From a virus: a DNA stretch of 29,785 nt. Positions 1 to 25,491 of the stretch are shown here, in pieces. Numbering within the stretch: the first letter of the stretch is position 1; each line of letters begins with the position of its first letter. Below the pieces are notes generated by a model. It was not told where the DNA came from, did not search any database, and saw only the letters and a list, made by a program, of their open reading frames with translations. Location: positions 1-29,785 of the IMG/VR virus record IMGVR_UViG_3300042691_027865. One strand, 5' to 3'. A program made the translations under genes and the position numbers.

Positions 1-172
1 CATCCCAAAATACAACAACCTTATCAAAGTTTTGTTCTTGAACGAATTTTCTGATTGTATTTAAGAAATGATATATCCCACCAACGTGTTCTCCCTTATG
101 GTAGAACTCCTTAACTCCGTGAAATCCAATCTTTAATAAATTATTACCGTCAACTAAAAGTGTTTTAATCAC
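1..172 (-). CDS. 5'-3' exonuclease (PIN/FEN-type, T4 RNase H-like), N-terminal part
   Basis: Only the first 57 codons lie in the window; the gene runs off the left edge. The N-terminus reads VIKTLLVDGNNLLKIGFHGV and continues to DKVVVFWD. This is the opening beta-strand and first metal-binding aspartate (LxVDGNN) of PIN/FEN-type 5'-3' nucleases, followed by the second strand that leads to the next acidic residues. In T4-like phages the corresponding enzyme (rnh) removes RNA primers and trims flaps during lagging-strand synthesis, which fits its place beside ssb- and uvsX-like genes. The start is GTG at 170-172: the nearby ATG and the first GTG run quickly into stops, and a purine-rich AAAGGA lies just upstream. 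The class is clear, but the exact subfamily cannot be fixed from 57 residues. Confidence 0.75.
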   Translation of the reverse strand, partial: MIKTLLVDGNNLLKIGFHGVKEFYHKGEHVGGIYHFLNTIRKFVQEQNFDKVVVFWD

Positions 173-208
173 ACATCCTTTTTAAAGGGTTAGGAAATTT
201 TGTTTTTT

Positions 209-240
209 AAAATATAGTATATAAAATGTCGTATTTCAAG
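209..240 (-). promoter_or_regulatory. candidate Bacteroidota-type promoter of the exonuclease gene
   Basis: On the minus strand CTTG (237-240) is followed by 20 nt and then TATATTTT (209-216). Each box has one mismatch to the Bacteroidota consensus TTTG / TAnnTTTG. The gap from the -7 box to the start codon (36 nt) almost equals that of the exact-consensus promoter of the ssb-like gene (35 nt). This is by-eye matching in AT-rich DNA. Confidence 0.35.
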
Positions 241-251
241 TATCTAAAAAA

Positions 252-602
252 TTAAATATTTGATTTTACCTTCGGTAAGGTTGTATCTATTTGACATACC
301 GCCAACTGGTAAATTCTAAAATCCCATTCACCACCATAATTCGAATCTTCCAAACTAAACATTGCATTAATAGAATTTACAATACTTTGTTCTAATTTAT
401 AAAGTTGTTGTTTAGTCATTTCGTTATTTGAGTTATTGATTACTACATTAATAATAGTTTGTTCAATAACAGGTCTTCCTTTTGTTGACCCCAACATAAT
501 ACTTTTAGTTGTAAAAAATACATCTGAAACATCAGGGAAACTTTTTAGAGCGAACCTCTTGATGAGATCATTAATTTTACTTTCAGTTAATAGGTATTTC
601 AT
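252..602 (-). CDS. small protein of unknown function with LTE leader (copy 3)
   Basis: A 116-aa protein with no family I recognise. It begins MKYLLTESKINDLIKRF; the first eight residues are identical to those of the next gene upstream (605-883) and close to the one before it (896-1267), while the bodies do not align by eye. The rest looks like a small soluble alpha/beta protein, with a hydrophobic strand TIINVVINN near residues 50-58 and an amphipathic helix at about 63-80. There is no membrane segment. It starts 2 nt after the neighbour's stop codon, so the two are probably co-transcribed and translationally coupled. The LTE|S junction matches the (L/I)-x-E pattern cut by T4-type prohead proteases, so it may be a capsid-targeted internal protein. 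That role is inference. Confidence 0.7.
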   Translation of the reverse strand: MKYLLTESKINDLIKRFALKSFPDVSDVFFTTKSIMLGSTKGRPVIEQTIINVVINNSNNEMTKQQLYKLEQSIVNSINAMFSLEDSNYGGEWDFRIYQLAVCQIDTTLPKVKSNI

Positions 603-604
603 AA

Positions 605-883
605 TTATTTTTCTATGTGATAATAAAAACTAAATTTTAATCCGGAAAAAAAACCATTTAAATCTTCTGTTAATTCTCTAATTTGATTTTTCAAAAGAAG
701 ATCGAATAATGGTCCCTCTTCTTTAGCCGCCTCCCAATCATAAAAAAGGTTAATATTGTAAGCATTCATTATCTCATCATAATCCACCCATATCCTTTTC
801 ATTACAGGATATTGTCCTTCATACTTATCTAAGTATTTTTGAATAATGTTCTCTAATCTACTTTCCGTTAATAGATATTTCAT
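605..883 (-). CDS. small protein of unknown function with LTE leader (copy 2)
   Basis: A 92-aa protein beginning MKYLLTESRLENIIQKYLDK. The first eight residues equal those of the 252-602 product, but the codons differ at synonymous third positions (TAT against TAC, ACG against ACT). This suggests selection on the peptide and not a recent DNA copy. The body is acidic and aromatic, with two predicted helices around residues 50-75 and no cysteines or membrane segments. ATATTTAT lies 5 nt before the ATG. I do not recognise the family; a packaged internal protein is a guess based on the leader alone. Confidence 0.7.
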   Translation of the reverse strand: MKYLLTESRLENIIQKYLDKYEGQYPVMKRIWVDYDEIMNAYNINLFYDWEAAKEEGPLFDLLLKNQIRELTEDLNGFFSGLKFSFYYHIEK

Positions 884-888
884 AACTT

Positions 889-896
889 ATAAATAT
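889..896 (-). promoter_or_regulatory. ATATTTAT octamer 5 nt before a start codon
   Basis: Reads ATATTTAT on the minus strand, just upstream of the ATG at 881-883. It is one of ten copies placed upstream of gene starts in this window; the promoter role is inferred. Confidence 0.35.
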
Positions 897-1267
897 TAAC
901 TAAAAAACCAATCATTTTCTTTTCCGTATTTATCAAGAATATTCACACCAAAAAACTTGTTAATAAATTTAACAAAAATATCTTCACCAACTAAATTAAA
1001 AAAACTTTCTAACTCCGGATTCAACCACCAAGCTGTATCTGAAGATGGTACACCATCAGATTCTAACCAAATCACTTGTTCGTTATCCATATATTTTTCA
1101 CTCGAATATCTATATTCACCATAGTCATTTCGAGCATTACCCCAACTCGTTTTCATTCTTAAACCACCTTCTAAAGATGGATAAAAACTAAAAAAAGTCG
1201 GTAAAAGTTTATTGAATAATCTTTCAAAATTTTTATCAACTTGTTCTTCTGTTAAAATGTATTTCAC
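896..1267 (-). CDS. small protein of unknown function with LTE leader (copy 1)
   Basis: A 123-aa protein beginning (G/M)KYILTEEQVDKNFERLFNK, from a GTG start at 1265-1267. The start is fixed by alignment with the two downstream genes, which start ATG-AAA-TAY at the same point. The body is rich in aromatic residues (GEYRYSSEKYMD, DTAWWLNPELESFFN) and ends NDWFFS. It is the first gene after the uvsX terminator, and ATATTTAT sits 4 nt before the GTG, so it may head its own transcription unit with the two genes below it. Function unknown; the leader suggests the same fate as its neighbours. Confidence 0.7.
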   Translation of the reverse strand: MKYILTEEQVDKNFERLFNKLLPTFFSFYPSLEGGLRMKTSWGNARNDYGEYRYSSEKYMDNEQVIWLESDGVPSSDTAWWLNPELESFFNLVGEDIFVKFINKFFGVNILDKYGKENDWFFS

Positions 1268-1271
1268 ATCT

Positions 1272-1279
1272 ATAAATAT
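1272..1279 (-). promoter_or_regulatory. ATATTTAT octamer 4 nt before a GTG start
   Basis: Minus-strand ATATTTAT between the uvsX terminator and the first LTE-leader gene. If it is a promoter element, the three small genes form a unit separate from uvsX, and the transcript would be nearly leaderless. Confidence 0.35.
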
Positions 1280-1290
1280 AATGTAAAATA

Positions 1291-1316
1291 AAAAACCCCT
1301 CTTTTAGGGAGGGGTT
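1291..1316 (-). terminator. intrinsic terminator after the uvsX-like gene
   Basis: Perfect 8-bp stem AACCCCTC/GAGGGGTT (1294-1301 with 1309-1316) with a 7-nt loop. On the minus strand it is followed directly by a T-rich tract. It starts 5 nt after the stop codon of the recombinase gene. Confidence 0.85.
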
Positions 1317-1320
1317 AATT

Positions 1321-2316
1321 TTATTCTGACATTTCAACTTCTTCCGTTTCGTCAAGTTTTATTTCACCATCACCGGAAAGTATTGCATTCCAATACTGAG
1401 AATATTCTTTTTTATACTTTTCAAGCGCATCTTTATCGTCCGCGATATATCCTTGTGGAACCGCAATGATCTTTCCATCTTTATACCCAAGCCCATTTAC
1501 GTGGTTTTTTAGAATAGATACTTTGGTTCTGATTGCATAAGATACAGTTCTTCCGTTCTTTGTTGCGGTAATATGATTGATACCCGCATTTTTTTGATTA
1601 CCAAACAAGAACACAAGTGATGACGCTAACCATAATGCTTCTCCACCTTTCGCTTTGATCGTTGGTTGTCCAAATGGATTATCCGGAAGTTCAACCCAAG
1701 GTTGGTTAATCACGACCATAGTATTATAGTAGGGATAATCCTCTTTCTTGGACTTTGTTATTCGTGCGTGAATTCCCATACCAATTTTATCAGCCAGAGT
1801 GGAGGCATTGTGTTGTTTGCCGCCCTTGCCGTCAAATGTCATTTTACAAGGAATTGAACCCACAGAATCCCAACAAATTAATAGGTTATATGGAACTTCA
1901 CCTTTTTCTTGAGCATCTAATAACTCATTTATAAAGTCAGTAGCTTGTTCAATATAATCAAATGAATCGTTGAATATGAAGTCACCATCCCATTCTCCGT
2001 TTTCGTTTTTGGTTGCTTGTAATCCCAATTCAACAGCATGTTCCCAACTCCATTTGCGTTCGGTAATTATGAACACAGGAAGATGTCCTTTTCTTTGAGC
2101 GTCTGCCGCCGCAAGAATCATCGCAGTTGTTTTACTACTATTGGTATGTCCCAAGAACATATTAATCCCACCCATTACAGGGCCGGGAATACCACAAGCG
2201 TTATGAAACGCTTCACCACAATTGTAGTAGTTTGTTTCTTTATATTTTGTTTTGGTTGAGAATTTGTCTTTTATATTACCAATTCCACCAATATCTTTTT
2301 TCTTAATTCCTGCCAT
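1321..2316 (-). CDS. uvsX: UvsX/RecA-like recombinase
   Basis: A 331-aa RecA-fold ATPase of the phage UvsX group, which forms filaments on ssDNA and promotes strand exchange in recombination-dependent replication. Visible motifs: Walker A GHTNSSKTT at residues 56-64, a strand VFIITERKW at 81-89, Walker B LLICWDSVGSIP at 145-156 with the aspartate at 150, and the region FGQPTIKAKGGEALWLASS that corresponds to the RecA L2/core segment before the last strands. It is shorter than T4 UvsX (391 aa), and its P-loop departs from the bacterial GPESSGKT form, as is usual in T4-like phages. It lies downstream of the ssb-like gene, its normal functional partner, but a terminator separates the two. The ATG at 2314-2316 has only A/T-rich sequence before it and no Shine-Dalgarno. 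Confidence 0.9.
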   Translation of the reverse strand: MAGIKKKDIGGIGNIKDKFSTKTKYKETNYYNCGEAFHNACGIPGPVMGGINMFLGHTNSSKTTAMILAAADAQRKGHLPVFIITERKWSWEHAVELGLQATKNENGEWDGDFIFNDSFDYIEQATDFINELLDAQEKGEVPYNLLICWDSVGSIPCKMTFDGKGGKQHNASTLADKIGMGIHARITKSKKEDYPYYNTMVVINQPWVELPDNPFGQPTIKAKGGEALWLASSLVFLFGNQKNAGINHITATKNGRTVSYAIRTKVSILKNHVNGLGYKDGKIIAVPQGYIADDKDALEKYKKEYSQYWNAILSGDGEIKLDETEEVEMSE

Positions 2317-3311: not shown

Positions 3312-3995
3312 TTAAACTCCAAAATTTCTATCCATATCTACATCAAAAGTACCTTTGATTTCTGAATCATTAAAATTTTCCGCCTCATCTGATGTTAAAA
3401 CATACTCATTTTTTCCGGATCTTTGAATGTCTTGTTGTTTGTCATCAAAAAAATCTGTAAGTTTTTGATTGAATGGTCCGGAATCTAAACTTCTTAATTC
3501 AAGTTTTTCTTGTGGTGTTTTTGGTCTATATTTTTCTACCGCTTGTTCTAAAGAATTAATTTGGTTAACTAATTTATCCATCTCACCTAACTTAGATTCT
3601 AATTGTGATAATTGTTGAAATAACTGCTCAAAATAAGAATCTTGTTTTTCTTTCATATCCTTTTGTGAAGTGACGAGTTCTGTTACGTCAAGTTCTTCGG
3701 TTCCTTCTTCTCCGCCTTCTTTATTTTCTTCAGTTTCTCCTTCAGCATCAACTTTTTCAACATCAGGATCGTTCTCAACGTCAACAGTTTCGGTTCCTCC
3801 TGTTGTAGACCCTTCTGCAGGTGCCCCTGCAGGTGGTGGAACATCTCCACCGGGGGCCGGTGGTGGAACATCTCCACCAGGTGGGGGTGGTGCCGCTAAA
3901 GGATCTGCCGGTGGTGGAGCATCCTGCTCATTAATATAGTTATTAATCCTTTTATATCTTTCTATTTCTTCTATAATTTTTCTATCTATTGCCAT
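3312..3995 (-). CDS. Pro-rich, acidic, coiled-coil protein of unknown function
   Basis: A 227-aa protein with clear segments: a charged N-terminal helix (MAIDRKIIEEIERYKRINNY), a Pro/Gly/Ala-rich stretch at about residues 25-65 with the repeat GGDVPPPA twice, a very acidic stretch (about 70-105), a heptad-like coiled coil (about 110-155, QLFQQLSQLESKLGEMDKLV) and a C-terminal region that ends DVDMDRNFGV. There is no catalytic motif. The layout suggests an elongated scaffold-like or virion-associated protein. It follows the 74-aa gene by 2 nt and lies at the distal end of the baseplate block, so a structural or assembly role is plausible but unproven. The INE|Q at residues 21-24 is a weak match to prohead-protease sites. 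Confidence 0.7.
   Translation of the reverse strand: MAIDRKIIEEIERYKRINNYINEQDAPPPADPLAAPPPPGGDVPPPAPGGDVPPPAGAPAEGSTTGGTETVDVENDPDVEKVDAEGETEENKEGGEEGTEELDVTELVTSQKDMKEKQDSYFEQLFQQLSQLESKLGEMDKLVNQINSLEQAVEKYRPKTPQEKLELRSLDSGPFNQKLTDFFDDKQQDIQRSGKNEYVLTSDEAENFNDSEIKGTFDVDMDRNFGV
3832..3878 (-). repeat. tandem 20-nt repeat, 27-nt period, coding for GGDVPPPA
   Basis: The plus-strand string GGTGGTGGAACATCTCCACC occurs at 3832-3851 and again at 3859-3878. It encodes two 9-residue units in the Pro-rich part of the 227-aa protein. Each unit is also partly self-complementary (GTGGA/TCCAC). Likely a slippage-generated linker repeat. Confidence 0.85.
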
Positions 3996-19168: not shown

Positions 19169-19966
19169 TTAATTATCTCCAGTATACTTAAATTTAACAC
19201 GCTTACTTAAAAATTCATCTTCACTAGTTTTTTCAATATTCTTTCTATCATCATCTGAAAATCCAATAAATGGTAAAAAGAAATTCTTAACATCATTTTT
19301 AATGTACGCCTTTTTATTTAATTCGTGAGCCAAATTTGTTACGTAGTTTACAAACTTTTTTAACGCTTTAACTTTTTCTTGTTCAGGGTTCGCCTCACTA
19401 CCCTTTCCAAAACTTACAGGATAAAATTGACACAAATCTAAATATGAATTTATAAGTTCCATCTTTGAAAGATTTTCTTGATCCATAAATTCTCTATACT
19501 TTTTTAGATTTTTAGTCAACTCCTCATTATTTATACCGTTCGTATTTGAAACAATATAATTATATACCGCCTCTTTAATTACAGTTGGGGTGTGTCCTCT
19601 CGCAGTTATTATCGAAAAAATTGATCCGTTGTTTATACATTCCACGAAATCATTCCACGAAGGTCCGGGTTCTGCTAACATGGCATCGATAATAAATCTT
19701 TTATCTCCTTCAGTTCTGAAATGTTTAAATGGATTTTCGGCGTAACCAACAATTCTTTCACCTTCATAATTAAAGTCATCAACACCAATCAAAGATCTAT
19801 ATTTGGCAAAATCTTCAGTAGACATTCCCATTTCCTGACCTTTGTCGTTTTTAACCATAATTTTTGTTGGCATATAAACAATATTATCATCCCAATCAAA
19901 GGCGTAATATCTTAGATCTGGCGTGTTATCTTTAAATCCTTCAAAAAGTTTTCTTTTCATAATCAT
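19169..19966 (-). CDS. HAD-superfamily hydrolase with LxE-type N-terminus
   Basis: A 263-265-aa protein. HAD motif I is FDWDDNIVYMP (nucleophile D24, second acid D26), motif II is SIITARGHT at about residues 118-126 (Thr121), and a late acidic motif GFSDDDRKNIE at about 235-245 supplies the metal-binding aspartates. A lysine-rich stretch between them (EKVKALKKF) likely contains motif III. This fold hydrolyses phosphoesters; a substrate cannot be named. The ATG at 19960 (giving MKRKLFEGF) is preferred over 19966, since MKRKLFE|G resembles the MKYLLTE|S leaders of the small proteins here. It lies directly under the sheath terminator, between sheath and tube, a place where T4 has no gene. The T tract of the terminator abuts the start. 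Confidence 0.75.
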   Translation of the reverse strand: MIMKRKLFEGFKDNTPDLRYYAFDWDDNIVYMPTKIMVKNDKGQEMGMSTEDFAKYRSLIGVDDFNYEGERIVGYAENPFKHFRTEGDKRFIIDAMLAEPGPSWNDFVECINNGSIFSIITARGHTPTVIKEAVYNYIVSNTNGINNEELTKNLKKYREFMDQENLSKMELINSYLDLCQFYPVSFGKGSEANPEQEKVKALKKFVNYVTNLAHELNKKAYIKNDVKNFFLPFIGFSDDDRKNIEKTSEDEFLSKRVKFKYTGDN

Positions 19967-23466: not shown

Positions 23467-23508
23467 ATGGCAGATTATTTTCTTCCTTTTTTCTGCCTTC
23501 GTTTATGA
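23467..23508 (+). CDS. possible 13-codon leader ORF
   Basis: Reads MADYFLPFFCLRL and stops at TGA. The stop overlaps the ATG of the next ORF (ATGA at 23505-23508). The following gene has no Shine-Dalgarno, so this mini-ORF could feed it by translational coupling. It may also be chance. Confidence 0.3.
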   Translation: MADYFLPFFCLRL

Positions 23509-23669
23509 CCTCAGAAAAGAAAAAAATAAAGAATCTTAAGATATCAGTAGAATCTCACGAGATATTAAAAAAATATTGTGATAAAAAAGGTATTAAAATT
23601 TACAAGTTTTTGGAAAACTTAATTATAGAAAAATGTAAAGAAAAGAAGGATATTTACGGAGAATCTTAA
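23505..23669 (+). CDS. small ribbon-helix-helix (Arc/CopG-like) DNA-binding protein
   Basis: A 54-aa ORF. Residues 8-44 read IKNLKISVESHEILKKYCDK then KGIKIYKFLENLIIEKC. This is the RHH plan: one beta strand with alternating exposed residues (KNLKISV), helix A (SHEILKKYCDKKG) and helix B (KIYKFLENLIIEKC). Such proteins act as dimers or tetramers that put the strand pair in the major groove and usually repress promoters. It is the only plus-strand gene within the long minus-strand tail block and converges on the 346-aa gene; the two stop codons overlap within TTAA (23666-23669). It could regulate late phage genes or the divergent sheath side. The candidate operator near 27816 is a guess. Confidence 0.65.
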   Translation: MTSEKKKIKNLKISVESHEILKKYCDKKGIKIYKFLENLIIEKCKEKKDIYGES

Positions 23670-24708: not shown

Positions 24709-25245
24709 TTATAATTTAACGTATGTTGTTCCGGGAATGAAATCCTTTGCCTGATGTTTTGGTAATAAAGTTCTCCAACTATTACCGAATGTTTTTTCAA
24801 AATGTGGAGCATCTTTAAATGATTTCCAATCTCCACCCCAAGTCCATCCATTTCTTTTTAAAATTTCAACAATTTCCATCCAATCTGATTTACCATCTTT
24901 ATCAAAATCTACATTTGTTTCCCAAGATGCCGTATCAACTTTACCATCTCCATTGGTATCTTTTATTAATACAATATCCAAAGCTAACCCATAATTATGA
25001 ATTGACTGGCCACCTTTAGCCTTTGTAACCACACCTAATCTTTTCCCTTGATTATCAAATAATTTAGTTCTACCTTGGGCATATAAAGAATCCTGCTCCA
25101 AGAATGTTCTTAATGTGTATGCAAATCTACATATCGCCCTTCCTGTTAAAGCGGGAACGATTTGAGCTCTGTAAATGTAATTTACCTCCTCTCTAACTGC
25201 GGGATGTAAAAGTTGAATTCTGTCAAGTGTTAATTTGTCTTCCAT
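24709..25245 (-). CDS. M15 (VanY-type) peptidase, endolysin-like, with two Ca-binding loops
   Basis: A 178-aa L-alanyl-D-glutamate/D-Ala-D-Ala peptidase-type enzyme that cuts peptidoglycan stem peptides. Zinc ligands are H83 and D90 in SIHNYGLALDIV, and H148 in DAPHFE, with D145 as the likely catalytic acid. Phage T5 endolysin uses the same H-D-H set plus an Asp three residues before the last His. Between the ligands are two calcium-loop sequences, DTNGDGKVD (96-104) and DFDKDGKSD (113-121). T5 endolysin activity depends on Ca2+ through a similar loop, so this enzyme may be calcium-dependent too (inference). No signal peptide or holin is visible nearby. It lies in an operon with neck/terminator genes, so it may be either a lysis enzyme or virion-borne. 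Confidence 0.8.
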   Translation of the reverse strand: MEDKLTLDRIQLLHPAVREEVNYIYRAQIVPALTGRAICRFAYTLRTFLEQDSLYAQGRTKLFDNQGKRLGVVTKAKGGQSIHNYGLALDIVLIKDTNGDGKVDTASWETNVDFDKDGKSDWMEIVEILKRNGWTWGGDWKSFKDAPHFEKTFGNSWRTLLPKHQAKDFIPGTTYVKL

Positions 25246-25248
25246 ATA

Positions 25249-25491
25249 TTAATTTTTAATTTTGGCTTGAGCAATTAATGTGTCATTACCATATTGAAAT
25301 CTAAAGGTAAGATCCGGATATTTGTTCTGTAAGTATTCCAACCATTTCTTAACACTTTTTTTAGACATAAAAGAAGATTTGATTTTATCTTCTTCATAAT
25401 CAAACGTATCAAGTTGTTCTTGTGGAGTTTTAGTTAAGCCTTCTTCCTTAAGAATTCTATAATATTGACTTTCTGTTAATTTTATTCTCAT
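25249..25491 (-). CDS. 80-aa protein with LTE leader, unknown function
   Basis: Begins MRIKLTESQYYRILKEEG, the same plan as the MKYLLTES leaders 24 kb to the left: M, basic residue, hydrophobics, LTE, Ser, then an amphipathic helix. The body (about residues 20-80) is charged, with SKKSVKKWLEYLQNKYPDLT and a short beta end FRFQYGNDTLIAQAKIKN, and no enzyme motif. Its ATG overlaps the stop of the neck-like gene by 4 nt (ATGA), and it precedes the M15 peptidase by 3 nt, so it is part of a structural-gene operon. If the leader directs it into the prohead, this would be a packaged internal protein. Function unknown. Confidence 0.65.
   Translation of the reverse strand: MRIKLTESQYYRILKEEGLTKTPQEQLDTFDYEEDKIKSSFMSKKSVKKWLEYLQNKYPDLTFRFQYGNDTLIAQAKIKN

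Follow-up and report, generated by a model that had tools for sequence, protein, structure and literature searches.

Why do three adjacent genes of a virus, whose products cannot be aligned by eye beyond their first residues, begin with almost the same seven amino acids? The question is raised by IMG/VR virus record IMGVR_UViG_3300042691_027865 (positions 1 to 29,785, here called the window), a 29.8 kb virus fragment with uvsX, gp32-like, sheath, tube, baseplate and neck genes, assigned by reading its open reading frames (ORFs); the sheath, tube, hub and gp14-like genes match Flavobacterium phage immuto. The trio lies on the minus strand. Gene 1 (252..602, 116 aa) starts MKYLLTE↓SKINDLIKRF..., gene 2 (605..883, 92 aa) MKYLLTE↓SRLENIIQKYL..., and gene 3 (896..1267, 123 aa) MKYILTE↓EQVDKNFERL..., where the arrow marks a candidate cut; genes 1 and 2 carry class B leaders in the scheme given below. 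The leaders are encoded at 582..602, 863..883 and 1247..1267, and the cut proposed in gene 1 follows the rule for the T4 protease gp21, L/I-X-E (PMC9026906). A preliminary description had located the three ORFs and their leaders correctly, and the silent codon differences that it noted number two between the leaders of genes 1 and 2 (TAC/TAT and ACT/ACG), both with ATG starts; it read the third protein as G followed by KYILTEE, of which the heptapeptide stands and the first residue is M, from a GTG start. It also took the shared start for a candidate capsid-targeting tag like those of T4 internal proteins. The answer reached here is that the leader is one of several interchangeable tags on unrelated late proteins of related phages, and that the system is most likely the T4 capsid-targeting scheme in a new form, with packaging, cleavage and injection as the steps that we infer.

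The shared leader proved real, and the family larger than first described, with leaders of classes A, B, C, E and G on many unrelated proteins. The classes were defined by reading pattern-matched loci together with seven longer records: class A, MKIIITESQYKxLLxE; class B, MK[YFI][LI][LI]TE[NS][KR]L; class C, KxFIITExEKxRIxxLY; class E, MKxLIRKILKE; class G, MKKIIRLTESDLTRIVKRVIKE; and a small class D, ILNEIxRIxxLMG. Behind these leaders stand 94 body clusters in class A, 19 in class B, 15 in class C and 48 in class G, that is, the short leader common to unrelated bodies by which T4-type capsid-targeting-sequence proteins are recognized. The leader is beyond chance: viral contigs yielded at least 120 matches to a degenerate DNA pattern for MKIIITE-x-Q, and 257 Gb of genomes from bacteria and archaea yielded none. 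The MKYLLTES pattern matched nine stretches in viral contigs; no other MKYLLTE-type start was found among 80 uvsX-anchored relatives, and therefore MKYLLTE is no general N-terminal habit. A tblastn search with a 20-aa leader gave no matches, which does not imply absence because a query that short can, by our estimate, hardly reach E 10, and a literature search found the leader sequences in no phage paper. Counted by regular expressions, five leader-rich records hold 20–32 leader genes each, or 8–13% of their called genes, and two others (G002 and G024) 2–3%.

Leaders are exchanged on homologous bodies. Dissimilar leaders were found in 36 body families, of which 14 have their candidate sites in exact alignment and 18 have them no more than one residue apart, compared with a mean of 2.5 exact alignments and a maximum of 9 in 1000 shuffled controls. 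DHH bodies follow MKIIITETQYKRLINE↓SGIRDI, MKSLIKKVLQEEVKGILTE↓SGIRNI and MDNMRKLIKE↓SGIRDI, and in a 642 kb phage MLRKYGQFINE↓EVGFKN; in an alignment of seven DHH proteins I14 and E16 are invariant. Sigma-factor bodies follow ISE↓GFNFD, LTE↓GINFD, LTE↓NVNFD and LIE↓HNFN. Additionally, T4-like leaders such as MKHLESYKIFE↓S, MKYIKSYKIFE↓S and MRHIKSYKIFE↓S precede many ORFs, including DHH and HAD bodies, in two uncultured phages of 635–642 kb (L306 and L307; LR745206 and LR756502).

The position of the cut was read from the conservation of the leaders. In class G the E of I-x-E lies at +13 in all 48 body clusters, with I, L or V at P3 in 47 of them and a variable P2, and past that E conservation drops to background. 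The conserved block of class A extends beyond LTE↓S, with L or I at +6, and a second [LI]xE occurs 5–24 residues past the leader TE in 69/94 clusters (73%) versus 12–29% in downstream windows; for class C the figures are 13/15 (87%) versus 7–15%. An (L/I)-x-E at the boundary between leader and body is thereby found for classes A, C and G, and likewise for many families with swapped leaders. The preliminary description had put the cut at LTE↓S. That is not the best-supported site for most leaders, whose conservation continues to the second (L/I)xE, typically 8–14 residues after LTE, which appears from sequence to be the best-supported candidate; LTE↓S stays plausible for the trio, where it is the only one. 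For classes A and G, we therefore read LTES as capping the N-terminus of a targeting helix whose end would bear the main cut site. Cutting at both sites is possible by analogy with phiKZ and SPN3US, for which propeptides with several sites have been described (PMC5694885).

The timing of these genes was approached through two promoter-like elements, TATTTAT being counted when within 45 bases upstream. It precedes 28/49 structural genes, 82/141 leader genes and 319/1481 other genes (leaders versus others, p=6e-19), whereas TAnnTTTG, a host-type element resembling the -7 element of Bacteroidota, precedes 0/49, 6/141 and 180/1481 respectively. Taking TATTTAT as a proxy for late transcription, the leader genes would be expressed late. 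Within the trio, genes 2 and 3 each have TATTTAT directly upstream (889..895 and 1272..1278, minus strand). The two elements separate gene sets in G025, G029, G031, G023, G002 and other records, and reverse-complementing the T4 late element TATAAATA gives TATTTATA. The extreme N-terminal position of the leader and its occurrence on small genes with a late-type promoter element are also what would be expected of a sequence that serves translation or expression, through ribosome binding or as a degron, and not targeting; such a role is very improbable, because it is the peptide that is conserved, over silent codon differences, and the conservation reaches up to about 22 codons to end at an aligned (L/I)xE and not at a fixed distance from the start.

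For the trio itself the evidence is of another kind. AlphaFold2 models of genes 1 and 2 have the same element order, alpha-beta-beta-alpha-beta (H-E-E-H-E; gene 2 adds a short helix), so that the bodies, which do not align by eye as first described, can no longer be called unrelated in two of three cases. In the gene 1 model (pLDDT 78) residues 1-4 score below 50, residues 1-6 are coil and a helix spans 7-21; in that of gene 2 (pLDDT 86) residues 1-6 are coil and the helix spans 7-20. The coil ends where the first helix begins, which places LTE↓S at the onset of the predicted fold and would make MKYLLTE a detachable tail. LTE↓S matches (L/I)-x-E, with no second site in the trio and no enrichment at the level of the family: class B, to which the trio belongs, has a second site in 6/19 clusters (32%) versus 16–29% downstream, and cleavage of the trio is for that reason argued from LTE↓S.

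The same observations raise the alternative that class B is a diverged paralogous family whose N-terminus is simply its most conserved part, neither tag nor cut. The shared predicted order of two members, the recovery of other class B proteins by profiles from each member and the missing second-site enrichment are all in its favour. However, the first six residues are coil outside the predicted fold, the MK[YFI][LI][LI]TE heptad also starts class A proteins with other bodies, related bodies occur without the heptad (L172/8434) or with a different leader (L108, MKKLIKNILKE↓E), and a late-type element precedes 14/20 class B genes; this alternative is judged unlikely. Homologs of the gene 1 body were not found by a back-translated scan of viral contigs with the gene 1 protein and were obtained instead through leader patterns and profile searches (L084, L091, L291, L197, L168, L108 and L172); they start with class A, class B or other leaders, or have none. 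Gene 3 body homologs lie at L301/7327-7710, L293/5990-6355 and L115/14183-14506.

The three genes form a cassette (242..1284, 1.04 kb) between uvsX and an exonuclease gene. It is absent from relative L001, in which both flanks are contiguous, UvsX is identical and DNA identity over uvsX is 95%. Insertions recur at this junction (window 172-1321, compared over loci L001-L080): most relatives have nothing there, and the others have HNH-like nucleases, methyltransferase-like genes or class G leader genes (L002, L005, L006), all named from ORF reading. As an insertion hotspot it is reminiscent of the variable loci for internal proteins in T-even phages. Neither Pfam, with nothing at E<=1, nor PHROGs, with weak matches to families of unknown function, gave the trio a usable family, in searches that did not compare it directly with IPI-III, and fold searches of genes 1 and 2 returned weak general alpha/beta matches and nothing more. 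On the models, the best explanation of the trio is a mobile cassette of small, predicted alpha/beta proteins with the shortest form of the leader, MKYLLTE↓. Its packaging into the head is rather likely, and a cut at LTE↓S is about an even bet; by analogy with T4 IPI-III, its proteins would likely block host defences at entry.

A processed tag needs a protease, and T4 gp21 cuts after L/I-X-E (PMC9026906). The preliminary description noted that the prohead protease is outside the window, and none was found in the 29.8 kb record. Among 30 records searched for Gp23, a gp21-type (S77) protease (PF03420) is present in all 13 that hold Gp23, while 15 of the 17 without Gp23 were searched for PF03420 and none has any. 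Since the relatives have a gp21-type protease and the window is without a head module, the phage of the window would be expected to have one as well. Five Gp23 homologs have a conserved N-terminal region ending LINE↓A, a position placed from the motif that fits the T4 rule; scaffold sites read LVEE↓A and LVKE↓S, and a core-type protein encoded between portal and protease begins MKFGILKSKIENVLLE↓S. The start of this core-type protein (G025:243519-244268, G029:87933-88646, G002:103824-104528), MK[FI]G.[LI]KSK[IV]E..L[LV]E↓S, resembles the class B leader. In one record (G027, the L118 record; 268,739 b) two gp21-type proteases (at 31 kb and 233 kb) and two Gp23 genes were found, representing either two head modules or a chimeric assembly.

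The cargo was surveyed by searching 96 leader proteins against Pfam and PHROGs. Sigma factors, endolysin or lysozyme domains, SLT, YkuD, HD, DHH, GDSL lipase, OST-HTH, peptidoglycan-binding domains and HNH or homing nucleases were found, most matches being single, and PADLOC gave weak single matches. In L137 (8108-8668), L147, L154, L184 and L179, class A leaders with an aligned xE site precede ECF-like sigma factors. One protein, in L107, was suspected from LYHG-type motifs to be ADP-ribosyltransferase-like, which is not claimed, the PARP match having E=0.019. Lysozyme, SLT and peptidoglycan-binding proteins can also be tail or baseplate parts, from which it could be argued that the leaders are assembly tags for the tail or baseplate, or for a replication compartment, and not for the head. 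This is quite improbable, as the motif at the boundary is that of the capsid propeptide and scaffold sites in these phages and matches the T4 gp21 rule, and T4-like capsid-targeting leaders substitute on the same cargo.

The reading preferred here, and held with good though not full confidence, is that T4-like phages have a capsid-targeting propeptide system of which this leader represents one dialect, core binding, cleavage, packaging and injection being what the pattern leads us to infer. Leader proteins, with leaders of 7–25 residues, would be made late; the leader would bind the prohead core, so that the protein is trapped inside; a gp21-type prohead protease would cut after (L/I)xE and release the body, and the freed body would enter the host along with the DNA. 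For the trio the most likely cut would be LTE↓S, in parallel with ITE-6 of T4 Alt. The idea of T4-type targeting was right in kind for the leader family, as argued by the leader swaps, the aligned (L/I)xE, the late-type elements, the presence of gp21 with the head module and the T4-like leaders on the same cargo, while the cut site and the unrelatedness of the bodies had to be revised. Several points weigh on the other side, besides the class B sites given above. In 14 of the 36 swapped-leader families the candidate sites are three or more positions apart or missing; some homologs of the HAD-like window gene described below (L119) have no clear site; for HNH or homing nucleases and sigma factors packaging is not obvious; and no virion proteomics was found for any leader carrier. 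Additionally, four leader-bearing records of more than 110 kb (G023, G032, G033, G034) gave no protease match, and also no Gp23; these and the other records without PF03420 and Gp23 are presumably fragments.

Known systems offer parallels at several points. T4 IPI, IPII and IPIII likewise have unrelated small bodies, one short N-terminal leader, variable loci and an (L/I)-x-E boundary; Ip1-3 have only the leader in common (PMC12373910), and the first 10 residues of IPIII are enough for packaging, while an IPIII in which the E of the site is replaced by D is reported to be packaged and left untrimmed (PMC9026906). They differ in being few, whereas the richest records here hold tens of leader genes with other leader sequences in several dialects, whose packaging is proposed. 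T4 Alt, a packaged ADP-ribosyltransferase, loses a six-residue leader after ITE (PMC5694885), a very short leader like MKYLLTE↓ and MKIIITE↓, although it is a transferase and the window bodies are predicted small alpha/beta proteins. Inner-head proteins of phiKZ and SPN3US, cut by gp175 and gp245, include many propeptides cut after x-E, as proposed here, and a leader with two candidate sites, MANFVKSKLARESVE (PMC5694885); their sites are S/A-x-E or A-x-E and many of their propeptides long, unlike the (L/I)-x-E and short leaders of the present family. Flavobacterium phage immuto (NC_055915) is a cultured relative with a gp20-21-22-23 module and a 22-aa leader, MKKQILSEQFKRMQ.LAGIITE↓S, on two proteins (L290:676-1140, L308:25061-25456), which offers a cultured test case; it differs in its leader dialect, and its sequence, over the 149 kb read, showed no leader of the MKIIITESQ or MKYLLTES type. 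A paper on Baltic Sea Flavobacterium phages, presumed to be the source of immuto, neither mentions it nor gives a virion proteome, and Microcystis phage Mel-JY01, which has the head module, showed no such leader.

The carriers are T4-like phages, probably of Bacteroidota. Should the leaders act as proposed, leader and (L/I)xE boundary would suffice to list, from sequence alone, which proteins uncultured T4-like phages inject, and because the T4 class includes specific inhibitors of host restriction enzymes (PMC12373910), such lists should be rich in candidates for anti-defence functions. As one cargo protein occurs with several dialects, targeting specificity is testable through co-variation of each leader with its own prohead core. 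Were the class A sigma factors packaged, these phages would inject a sigma factor. With confidence somewhat short of even, it can be suggested that in abundant uncultured phages of ~150 to >600 kb up to about a tenth of the genes encode injected proteins with interchangeable tags, whose cargo (sigma factors, DHH, cell-wall enzymes) would be a takeover kit at entry that includes transcription factors.

Other minus-strand genes of the window have leader-like starts. The 80-aa gene at 25249..25491 begins MRIKLTESQYYRILKE↓EGL, a leader of class A that has a second (L/I)xE site; its start is as first described, and its location, given as the neck operon, was corrected, as the gene directly adjoins one for an M15-type D-Ala-D-Ala carboxypeptidase (24709-25245; PF13539, E=1e-17), a probable endolysin. 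The HAD-like gene (19169..19966) begins MIMKRKLFE↓G. It had been said to share the leader plan, of which LxE↓G is kept and the leader itself is not: its family has many dissimilar N-termini, most of them ending in LxE↓G or similar, with xE at the boundary. Beside gp32 and uvsX, the gene at 3312..3995 begins MAIDRKIIEEIERYKRINNYINE↓QDAPPP, and [IL]xE↓Q with a free P2 is found in 45/45 full-length relatives. Its product, possibly a head-core protein, is rich in proline, alanine and acidic residues and has about 50 homologs, common to the relatives, with a conserved YIxE↓Q. On the plus strand, an ORF of 54 aa (23505-23669) resembles ribbon-helix-helix regulators and runs opposite to the tail operon.
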